Assembly (NCBI GenBank): GCA_964019415.1
Contig: OZ025879.1
Coordinates: 5,164,368-5,228,367 of the forward strand
Length of the DNA stretch: 64,000 bases
Direction of reading: 5' to 3'
Origin: Ianthella basta
Taxonomy: Eukaryota > Porifera > Demospongiae > Verongiida > Ianthellidae
Position numbers and translations under genes: made by a program. Of this stretch, positions 6,021 to 64,000 are shown in pieces. The first letter of the stretch is position 1, and every line of letters starts with the position of its first letter. Below the pieces are notes generated by a model. It worked only from the letters and a program-made list of their open reading frames with translations. It did no database searches and was not told the origin of the DNA.

Positions 6021-9000
6021 ATGATGAGGATTTCAGTGCTCTCATGTTTGTGCCTCTATCTCAATACACTGGGAGGTGAGCCTACTTAGCTGGCTATCGC
6101 CATGATGGTCTGAAGGGTTAACACTGAAGCCAAACATGATATTTGCTAGTATCTTTGAATTCATTGTATTTCAATCCCTATATTCTTCACAAACCTTTAT
6201 CCTTCTCTTATCATTCTCTTCTCGGCAGATCATGGTCTGGTCAAGGCACAGAATGCACGAGGTGAGAGCTGCATGTTCTAACACATCAAACTCATTATCC
6301 CTATTAGTAGGAAGTCCGCCTGTGACATGCCTGCTCACAGGAAGCATGTTGATGGTGGTCAGTCAAATTTAAGCAAAGCAATATTTGCAGTATGCTGTCT
6401 GTGAGATGGTCACACAGGGCAGAATGCACCTTAGCAAAAAAAATGATCAGATCCAAGTGTGGTCAGGGCATGGCCTAGTCTCACTTGGCCTAGTCTTGCC
6501 ATTGACCAGACTGCCATTTTCACAGATTAGTGGATTTGGAGCAAACGTTATTAAACTCTCTATTGAATTAAACTCTCTATTGAATTAAACTCTACCGTCG
6601 TTATAGCAGCCAGCCTCTGTTGCTACCTGTGCAGACAATTCAAAGCTGGCAAGGTACCGACTCACTGGCTTGTGATAAGCTGAGAACCTGCCCGAAGGGC
6701 GGGCATTCTGCTAGTAATTATAAAATTGCAGAAGCAGCAAATGAAAGCTTCAAGTATTGTCACTTCAATAAGTAGACTGTACTTATTTCAATCACTTGTA
6801 TAAGTACATGGGAATGATGTAATTATTCATGTGATCATGACATTGTATGACTGTGGGTGTGAGGAGGGACAGGAAGTAGTAATAGATATGGTGAAGGAGA
6901 AGCAAAGAATGTGGAAGGTGATCGAAGATGGAGAGAATGAATGGAGATCGATTGGTGAAGCAAGTGTACGAAGAAGAAGTGAAAGAAAACAGACTTATTA
7001 TAGAGGAGGACCAAAGAAGTGATAGCTGGATCATTTTTAGTAGAAACTAATCCACTTATTATAGCATTTTGAATACAGAACACAAATACTTTGGACATGT
7101 AATCTCATACGTAATAACTTTTATGTATATCAGACTACCTCTGCAGGGGAGATTTTGCCATTGCTGACTAATGATGATGACAATGTACATGTACAATTTT
7201 TATCATTATTATAATATAGGTTTCGTTCTCAAATGCCACAAACTTCAAACCCTATTCTCCTATTTATAACTTTCCAAGCCTTGACATGTTTTCTCTCTCT
7301 CACCCAGCAGTTGTCATTGATGCCTACCCCAACACTGTTACTGTGGAGCAAGGCACCACCCTGATTTTGGTATGCAGAGTTGTAGGAGTGCCATCCACCA
7401 CTGTGCTGAGCTATCAGTGGACCTGTCCTGGGGGCTATTGCGATGCAGGAGGAGTTGATCCTGAGTGGGCAGCCAGGATCCAACAGGACAACATCTTGGT
7501 GGTGAATGTACGCAGTCAAGTCAATGACACATGCCTAAGGGACTACGTCTGTATTGTTGGGAATAGCATGCAGCAGGTGGGAACAGCTGTGCACACAATA
7601 TCATCTGTTACAAGTGAGTTAATTGTGTAGGAATTGACAAGTACTTAATCAGAGTCAGTACTGGTAGTTTGCAGTTGAATTAGAAAAAATCACCAGCAAA
7701 ACATGACTAGTGCTATTTGTTCAGGCAGAGTTAGAGGGAGCATAATATTTATAGTCTAAGAGCTCCATATAATTATGGATTGCATATCAACTGAAGCATG
7801 CATTGTACTAGTGGGGAATGTTCACAATCATATGAACTAGCGAGTACCCGCCACACAGTGGCGATGGCCCTCCAACGACAGTGATCCCACGACAGTGCTC
7901 CTCCCACAGCACTTCTATGATGGTGTTTCCAATGGTGACACACTGTAGTCATGGGCCCCAGGTAGACTTTGCCACTCCCAGTAACAGCTGGTGTAATAGC
8001 TCTTCTTTGTTGCTGCCTCACCCTTGCACTTATCCTTCTCTGGTCAGCATCTTGCTGCTCCTCCCTCCTCCTCCTGCCCCTCTCTGCCTCCCTCTCCCTG
8101 TCAGCTTCTTGCTGCTCCTCCCTCCTCCTCCTGCTCCTCTCCGCCTCCCTCTCCCTGTCAGCATTTTGCTGCTCCTCCCTCCTCCTCCTGCCCCTCTCTG
8201 CCTCCCTCTCCCTGTCAGCATCTTGCTGCTCCTCCCTCCTCCTCCTGCTCCTCTCTGCCTCCCTCTCCCTTTCCTTTTCACATTATAATATAGAAGAACC
8301 CGCCTTCTGCGGGCTTCTACGCAACTGGCGCTCCTTCATTGCCTGTAGTGTAGCCCGCGAAAAACATGGCGTCTTATTCCCTAAAGGAGGGAATTCTTGC
8401 GGCCCTTTCCTCGGGCCCAGCGACTCCTCTTCAGTCTACCCACTTATGACACTCTCCATACGTCGCCCCGTAATAATCCGGAGTTTCACGTGGATCGCAC
8501 GCACGCACGCTGCGGGAGAAGTGTTAATCTACTCGGTCGGACGGACGGACGGACGGTCGAACAAGCACATTAATATATAGATGATGGACTGAAAAGTGCA
8601 AAGGTAACCCATGAGGAAATATTGGTTATATATCATGCGGGATTAGCCTTCTTTCCACGTCAAAGTGTACACTCTCGTAGCTAGTAACCTCGGCTTTTCT
8701 ATGAATTTTGAAAAGTCCTGAGTGGCTAGGTAAGACACTGCCCTCCTAGAGTAGATTACTATTGAATCTCTACTGTTACTGCCTAACAAAATTCATTGAC
8801 TGTTAAAATTGTTACTTTAACGTTATTCATGGTCACATCATCAACTGTCACCACATTTCATCACCTGTCACTAACATTTATATATAAACTATAGGAGTGC
8901 TGTATTTTGTCATTCACTGATGAAGGTGGCTGAAAGCTGCCGAAACGTCTGGATAACTTGTGAAATTTTGGCTAGTGCGAACGAACTTGGATGAGGTTTT

Positions 9001-63800: not shown

Positions 63801-64000
63801 TGGTAGCACACAGGCTGCACAAGTAATATGGCATAACAGCAATGGCGGACAGCTAGTGGTATGCCAAATTGGTAACCCTGTTCGTGATGCACCTTGTCTT
63901 GACTGTGGTGGCCACTGTCAACGCAATGGCGCTGTAGGTGTGGACCCTCCACTCAATGGACACACTGATATCCACATGTACACTGACTCAGCTGCATATG
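57820..64000 (+). CDS. Receptor E: Ig/FN3 receptor, 3' part beyond the window
   Basis: Exons seen: 57820-57880 (signal peptide MTSLRISLLLCFVV), 58038-58070 (DHGLVEAQNAR), 61727-62020 (Ig-like domain, LVC...YQW...DNGVYTC) and 63650 to the edge (second Ig-like domain through GNDHIVC and HTDIHMYTDS). It is most like D: the Ig exon has the same 294-nt length and both end Q(Q)VGT..MYTL. No lesion is seen in the visible part. Intron 2 (about 3.6 kb) holds a relic micro-exon, microsatellites and several fold-back elements. FN3, membrane and tail exons should follow to the right. Confidence 0.82.
58249..58284. repeat. GC hairpin at the start of an inserted block
   Basis: ttaaccctcg and cgaggggttac are inverted around ggcggcgcgtagtgaag. 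A related 'ggcggcgagcgaagttac' occurs at about 48960 in receptor D intron 5. It is probably a transposon end. Confidence 0.4.
58302..58372. repeat. (TC)n then (TG)n compound microsatellite
   Basis: About 40 bp of TC runs straight into about 30 bp of TG in receptor E intron 2. Confidence 0.97.
58520..58618. mobile_element. MITE of the TAGTCTCGT family (99 bp)
   Basis: The ends tagtctcgtacccggccc and gggtctgggacgagacta are inverted. Internally aaccgttccgcc and ggcggaat also pair. It is the longest of three copies in the window. Confidence 0.75.
59800..59986. mobile_element. Hairpin MITE with CTGATGA centre
   Basis: agggggtaaattttg (59803-59817) is inverted at about 59968-59983. The centre is CTGATGAAGGCC...GGCCAAAAAC, parallel to the centres at 20650 and 52580. 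Confidence 0.65.
60645..60669 (+). pseudogene. Truncated micro-exon relic in receptor E intron 2
   Basis: ttagttgaggcacagaatac followed by acaag and gtgag repeats the end of exon 2 (VEAQNAQ with an A to T change) and its donor, without the DHGL half. Downstream intron sequence then matches receptor D intron 2, so this may be the original position, displaced by a 2.6-kb rearrangement. Confidence 0.7.
61358..61665. mobile_element. Fold-back element of about 300 bp in receptor E intron 2
   Basis: The left arm (gaatcttgagcttatcacag, cccaatggaagaggctcctg) pairs imperfectly with the right arm (gagtccccttccatcggatt, cttctgtgatc). Inner arms ctgtcaccatccatagacct and aggtctacagatagtgac also pair. A single arm is present at 47425-47490 in receptor D intron 4. 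Confidence 0.65.
62440..62590 (+). repeat. Diverged SINE-like sequence in receptor E intron 3
   Basis: gttcggtggttg, tagagtgattatcttggttt and gaattc correspond to the copy at 46165-46290. The B box is mutated (GGTTTGAATTC). Confidence 0.35.
62806..63315. mobile_element. 510-bp insertion in receptor E intron 3 with TGCA duplication
   Basis: Receptor D intron 3 gives the empty site (acgttgcacaccattc, about 46501-46516). In E, tgca is repeated on both sides (62802-62805, 63316-63319) around DNA whose ends are ggtgtcatgcc and ggcatgaca, a short inverted repeat. The insert is GC-richer (ggttccgcc repeats). No transposase is seen. Confidence 0.65.
63006..63126. repeat. 61-bp direct duplication inside the insertion
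   Basis: Two nearly identical copies start at 63006 and 63067, each beginning cgaacgaaatcgtttataaa. Shorter cgaacgaaatc-like subunits continue on both sides. Confidence 0.92.

Follow-up and report, generated by a model that had tools for sequence, protein, structure and literature searches.

The 64,000-nucleotide stretch analysed here (the window; positions 5164368-5228367 of contig C12, in an assembly of 209 Mb and 96 contigs) carries on its plus strand five head-to-tail paralogues, receptors A to E, which share the layout Ig domain, cysteine-rich Ig-like domain, FN3 domains, transmembrane segment and NPxY tail. Their assignment to a birth-and-death family of recognition receptors is well supported, because the genes are part of a megabase-scale tandem array, show positive selection that is confined to loops, differ partly in repertoire between assemblies and encode tyrosine-bearing tails. 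We further consider it probable that they form a multigene family that evolves fast and encodes single-pass recognition receptors of an immune type, whose ligands are microbial or allogeneic (the two taken jointly). An earlier note on this DNA had proposed a candidate recognition locus; these four lines of evidence uphold the birth-and-death recognition family, while allorecognition specifically was neither demonstrated nor excluded by them.

Receptor genes and domain composition

The positions of the receptor genes, of the exons of the reference gene and of the exon relics are collected in Table 1. All introns of receptor B are GT-AG and its exons 2-7 are symmetric (phase 1); its product consists, in this order, of a signal peptide (by inspection), the micro-exon peptide, the Ig domain, the cysteine-rich second domain, three FN3 domains, a transmembrane segment (by inspection) and the tail. 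The 33-base micro-exon (DHGLVxAQNA) was found in five out of five window genes. Four genes are complete within the window: A and B are intact and C and D carry stops. In C, a 4-base insertion with respect to B causes a frameshift late in exon 7, and the gene is a probable pseudogene, or else encodes a truncated secreted form. The stop in exon 6 is private to D, the other 21 of the 22 exon-6 rows being stop-free, and D has a different transmembrane exon (51558-51660). D also has two tail exons, at 52029-52146 (NPAY) and from 52783 onward (NPSY; E 2.3e-6), which are possibly alternative tails. Both the five tandem paralogues and the disabling lesions in two of them had been described in the earlier note and were confirmed.

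Table 1. Receptor genes, exons of receptor B and exon relics, with their positions in the window
Feature	Position	Strand	Description
Receptor A	6021-14442	+	8 exons, 547 aa, open throughout, without the FN3-3 exon
Receptor B	19295-25399	+	9 exons, 660 aa, intact; reference gene
B exon 2	19496-19528	+	33-nt micro-exon, DHGLVTAQNAQ
B exon 3	21194-21493	+	Ig domain
B exon 4	22610-23032	+	cysteine-rich second Ig-like domain with two hypervariable loops; no Pfam match
B exons 5-7 with introns	23321-24499	+	three FN3 domains
B exons 8-9 with intron	24861-25399	+	transmembrane segment and tail with YDNP, ALYDDP, NPAY
Receptor C	27164-32619	+	in-frame TGA at the end of exon 5; frameshift in exon 7
Receptor D	42559-52146	+	exons mapped, not joined; in-frame TGA at the end of exon 6
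Receptor E	57820 to beyond 64000	+	runs past the window end and continues in fetched locus L016
Exon-4 fragment in B	22241-22294		weak match (E 0.02-0.08), similar to the relic in C
Exon-4 relic in intron 3 of C	28676-28996	+	contains a stop; weak match (E 0.02-0.08)
Ig fragment	44850		weak match (E 0.19)
Partial second exon 4	47236		similarity match (E 7.6e-6)

A Pfam scan of the B protein listed 13 families at E ≤ 1. Exon 3 scored best with Ig_3 (E 1.4e-6; 29.1 bits, marginally below the cut-off of 30) and was counted as Ig; I-set, Ig_2 and ig scored weaker. FN3 (PF00041) reached 104.8 bits over three stretches. The families listed include neither SRCR nor Calx-beta, nor any kinase or phosphatase domain, and the tail is a single short exon that follows the transmembrane exon. 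Exon 4 of B yielded no Pfam match. Its framework residues C51, W63 and C123 are invariant in all 26 copies aligned, as are the cysteines C82, C85 and C89 beside loop 2, and the mean column identity is 75%. The structure models obtained for exon 4 are weak (predicted local distance difference test, pLDDT, 61 and 56); a deeper alignment of 109 rows gave no better model (pLDDT 56.1), and among the Foldseek matches of the structure model no row stands out. In our own reading of the alignment, loop 1 would precede the first pin cysteine, loop 2 would follow the presumed C' strand, and the position of a third complementarity-determining region (CDR3) seems comparatively conserved.

Sequence matches of B in the PDB were to LAR-type receptor protein tyrosine phosphatases (RPTPs), DCC/neogenin, contactins and Dscam. 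These matches, together with the Ig and FN3 architecture, would suit a combinatorial adhesion or gamete-recognition code made up of homophilic proteins like Dscam or the protocadherins. The best 60 of the 91 matches, however, all fall within the FN3 part (from query residue 273 on), so that the likeness to RPTPs, DCC/neogenin and Dscam that they show is one of FN3 domains, and B has no phosphatase domain; moreover, a dN/dS ratio above 1 in the loops and partly different repertoires (both described below) misfit a conserved homophilic code, which we consider improbable here.

Extent of the array

The copy counts given for the array are lower bounds. With the Ig exon of C, 150 matches were scored among 284 candidates: 82 were close (68-100% identity; 79 on C12 and three on C4, at 9.79-10.06 Mb); the other 68 were weak (36-48% identity), 62 of the latter lying on C8 and all but one of these at 6.27-7.65 Mb. 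With exon 4 of B, 89 matches were recovered from 93 scored candidates, of which 75 cover nearly the full length (72 on C12, three on C4) and 74 of those 75 are free of stops. An open exon 4 does not prove an intact gene, since C and D have one despite the stops elsewhere in these genes. The C12 array spans 1.72 Mb at a median copy spacing of 17 kb, and the strands of its copies form exactly two runs: 24 minus-strand copies at 4.396-5.147 Mb, followed by 48 plus-strand copies at 5.174-6.120 Mb. So few runs occurred in none of 100000 strand shuffles. The orientation diverges just left of receptor A, which is thus the first plus-strand copy. On C4, the exon-4 copies at 9929142 and 10062302 have identical scores and lie ~133 kb apart, reflecting either a recent segmental duplication or an assembly duplicate.

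Positive selection in two loops of exon 4

For whole exons 3-7, the ratio of nonsynonymous to synonymous substitution (dN/dS) was 0.53, 0.54, 0.77, 0.68 and 0.63, respectively (26, 26, 25, 22 and 15 sequences with at least 85% exon coverage; C and D kept). Over windows of 12 codons, exon 4 showed values of 0.08-0.18 in its first 36 columns and peaks of 1.6-1.7 in two loops, and the same two loops are variable in all three of the protein sets (g1, g2 and g3) introduced below. The loop columns were picked from g2 and g3 only, which avoids selecting them by the variability of the own copies. For the 23 columns obtained in this way dN/dS was 2.07 in the 26 own copies (codon bootstrap 1.42-2.90, with every one of the 100 replicates exceeding 1), as compared to 0.39 for the remaining 145 columns of the exon. 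Restriction to pairs with equal gaps (104 of 325) gave 2.12 for the loop columns (sequence bootstrap 1.75-2.65), and the whole loop blocks gave 1.9 for loop 1 and 1.7-1.9 for loop 2. The estimate depends on the threshold by which columns are chosen: a set of 10 columns yielded 2.03 (1.01-3.44), whereas a set of 34 columns yielded 1.23 (0.82-1.78), a range that includes 1. Because the positive selection in exon 4 is confined to the loops, these are the likeliest binding surface.

The same figures bear on the idea that the array is a decaying set of repeats under relaxed selection. The stops in C and D and the relic exons would fit such decay, which gains slightly in weight because two of the four complete window genes are broken. 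Nevertheless, exon 4 is open in nearly all near-full-length copies, its dN/dS outside the loops is well below 1, the whole-exon ratios of exons 3-7 are all below 1 and A and B are fully intact, and we regard decay as highly improbable.

In exons 5 and 6, a few windows have a dN/dS above 1, on very few changes. Halfway along exons 3, 5 and 6, synonymous divergence is low (pS 0.01-0.10 in many windows), which suggests conversion or recent spread. Among 15 genes, the distances of exon 4 correlate with those of exon 3 (Spearman 0.48) and exon 7 (0.39) and not clearly with those of exon 5 (0.10; 0.29 for third positions). Exons 3, 4 and 7 agree with each other, while the distances of exon 6 are mostly discordant with those of the other exons (-0.25 to 0.35), a pattern compatible with patchy gene conversion. 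A history of exon 4 independent of the later exons was rejected, as it proved an artefact of exon-5 cross-hits in the exon-7 set.

Relatives in other protein sets

A search with the full-length B protein retrieved just three proteins at E ≤ 0.001 among 7999 scored candidates. These cover 41-45% of the query, have FN3 in their Pfam lists and in two cases carry bacterial names; full-length B was therefore discarded as a probe for homologues, and the exon-4 alignment succeeded in its place. The exon-4 profile recovered 477 proteins at E ≤ 0.01 among 1646 candidates, nearly all of the listed ones being ENA records; no match was found in viral contigs. The best 120 of the 477 and the 26 copies of this genome (146 rows) were sorted by motif into g1 (n = 101, including the 26 own copies), g2 (n = 28) and g3 (n = 17), a rough sorting in which g1 received at least four rows whose contigs are of the g2 type. 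Since the best identity to this genome was just 79% over full length for a g2 protein and 72% at most for a g3 protein, these two groups represent other genomes. Peptides from contigs 2438289 and 429857 are identical to this assembly.

The proteins on contigs 1127918 and 507898 are similar to this genome and not identical to it. Five of the 24 listed were compared, with queries that include flanking intron residues and hence lower the identity somewhat: P0026 matched locus L032 at 128 of 133 positions and P0020 reached 91%, while no close partner was found here for P0013 (73-76%), P0016 (78-79%) and P0017 (83%). Proteins from short contigs were closer (P0063, 98%; P0022, 135 of 137 against L018; P0062, 129 of 131 against L033). 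Proteins like those of 1127918 and 507898 may come from an alternate haplotype, from other individuals or from a sister species; in the case of haplotypes, gene content would differ strongly at part of the locus. For the polymorphism between individuals that a recognition locus should show according to the earlier note, this indirect comparison gives a mixed answer, with near-identical partners for some proteins and identities of 73-83% for three. Single-copy orthologues with a housekeeping role, which would have spoken for another function, were not seen: in the searches with exon 4 and with the second domain of the C8 gene described below, the relatives elsewhere are multi-copy too.

Tyrosine-bearing tails and a related set on C8

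In other animals, PTB or SH2 adaptors bind to motifs of the NPxY type. The tail of B ends in ...YDNPDALYDDPQSVQLQDNPAYGTASVATGYGSKTKEDDETYH, and NPxY is found in all five tail exons of A-D, in seven of the eight tail exons detected by similarity in fetched loci and in 12 of the 13 tails of a motif-based collection, for which the search pattern itself required N or S-P-x-Y (one unrelated row of 14 was dropped); these counts omit tails that have diverged or lie outside the fetched stretches. An alternative version of the tail, e.g. SNPDKVYEEPELQDNPAYGTASATTANEK, occurs in D and in seven of the eight tail-bearing fetched loci. Locus L011 has a C-type tail, HYVQLQDNPAY being common to both, and locus L024 has SPAY where NPxY is expected. 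The NPxY tail that had been thought common to the five window genes is thus present in A, B, C and D; the tail of E lies outside the window.

On C8, one gene (locus L031) was read from open frames. Alongside an Ig exon it has a second Ig-like exon, which lacks the CxxCGxxC insertion, as well as two FN3-like exons and a transmembrane/tail exon carrying YVRVYTQLGGGTYQEL, a tyrosine tail unlike the C12 type. This last exon had 63 matches at E ≤ 0.01 from 99 scored candidates, located on C8 (mainly at 7.19-7.55 Mb), C16, C11 and C21. The second domain had 531 protein matches at E ≤ 0.01; among the best 120, the 100 from other-looking contigs have a near-invariant first half and a variable second half, and the 18 closest to the C8 gene vary little. 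Upstream of this gene (L031 9164-9700, minus strand) a transmembrane/tail-like open frame contains EDYDNPLAPW, YQSI and YASL and is perhaps a further tail type of the C8 array.

Proposed function

In the mechanism that we propose, the second Ig-like domain would expose two hypervariable loops, one beside the conserved extra cysteines, on a stalk of two or three FN3 domains, and the loops would bind non-self ligands of microbial or allogeneic origin. Ligand binding would cause the NPxY-type tail to be phosphorylated, and the phosphorylated tail would recruit PTB or SH2 adaptors, with uptake, adhesion or rejection as a result. Tandem duplication would keep supplying new specificities, while some copies, such as C and D, would decay.

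As to the ligands, CED-1/Draper-type tails provide a comparison for tails that drive engulfment. Phagocytic receptors that sense microbes or symbionts, with loops binding microbial surfaces and an NPxY plus YxxL-like tail driving engulfment, would agree with the many paralogues under loop-restricted selection, with the NPAY tails (including the stretch shared by C and L011) and with the repeated tail of the C8 gene. The motifs are short, however, and we give this reading a little less than an even chance. In the case of allorecognition, paralogues or alleles at the locus would decide between fusion and rejection, like Alr1/Alr2. The clustering of single-pass Ig-type receptors with tyrosine tails and the presence of relics and broken copies are in line with this, as are the repertoires that differ in part between assemblies. 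On the other hand, the variation extends across ~75 paralogues and is not concentrated in the alleles of one or two genes, and the clusters of Calx-beta domains, the older sponge candidate, appear unlinked; allorecognition is accordingly possible but rather unlikely. Recognition of microbes or symbionts is rated slightly above it, since so many paralogues share in the diversity. That the C12 array, perhaps with its C8 relative, is the long-sought polymorphic receptor locus for self and non-self in sponges, with many copies lacking an allelic partner between individuals or haplotypes, is a speculative and rather doubtful proposition. If true, it would place a loop-diversified repertoire of cell-surface Ig receptors near the base of the animals.

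Comparison with known systems

Clusters of immune-type receptor genes that diversify are already known, for example from Hydractinia Alr, and the array is of this kind. According to PMC11067881, Alr comprises at least 41 loci and is likewise described as clustered single-pass transmembrane Ig-type receptors with pseudogenes and polymorphic ectodomains. The resemblance is one of organisation; here, there are ~75 copies with high framework identity, FN3 domains and a cysteine-rich loop. The vertebrate KIR, LILR and NITR genes also form birth-and-death arrays with diversified Ig-like domains and tyrosine tails; unlike these, the present receptors have an FN3 stalk, an NPxY tail and variation in two loops of the second domain. 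A massive expansion of SRCR receptor-type genes in a sponge is reported in PMC10855680, and our array is alike in being a massive expansion of receptor genes, while the SRCR family is missing from the Pfam matches of B.

Abundant Calx-beta domains are a mark of demosponge aggregation-factor genes, and sponge aggregation factors are not known to be transmembrane receptors of the type found in the array. We recovered 969 Calx-beta candidates in this genome, of which 150 were scored, all above the cut-off and mostly on C11, C6 and C23; from this abundance the animal is probably a sponge. They include aggregation-factor-like clusters on C11 (4.8-6.4 Mb), C6 (7.36-7.44 and 8.45-8.47 Mb) and C23 (1.68-1.83 Mb), and none of the 150 scored lies on C12 or C8; aggregation factors and the receptor array therefore differ both in domains and in contigs. 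According to PMC5450542, which also cites a polymorphic aggregation factor in its reference list, sponges distinguish self from non-self with remarkable specificity, and genes for aggregation-factor-mediated adhesion were not significantly enriched in a graft transcriptome study.

Searches aimed at the family among Creative Commons-licensed PMC papers brought up no description of it. What sets the array apart within its kind is its scale, its FN3 stalk, a second domain with a cysteine-flanked hypervariable loop, and its likely host, a sponge. A positively selected Ig receptor array of megabase scale provides concrete loci, loops and tails to examine, and would place a large diversified repertoire of Ig receptors on an early animal branch.

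Exon relics and neighbouring genes

The exon relics reported earlier between and inside the genes were recovered as well, some of them through weak matches (Table 1). Between A and B the window contains a short-chain dehydrogenase gene (16128-17130; adh_short E 1.6e-19 for the 16128 frame), and a partial near-copy of it precedes A (4431-4742); the pieces look as if neighbour genes had been carried along in the duplications. Between C and D (region 35899-38811) lies a piece of a nucleotide-diphospho-sugar transferase at 38350 (PF03407, E 3.2e-6), to which the 35899 frame, without a Pfam match, is tied by position alone. Finally, the open frames at 1298-1765 and 40070-40486, for which no Pfam match exceeded the family cut-off, are similar to each other (SHFGS.IGTAG.LTVVVVATNYSARASLS...) and represent another duplicated neighbour.
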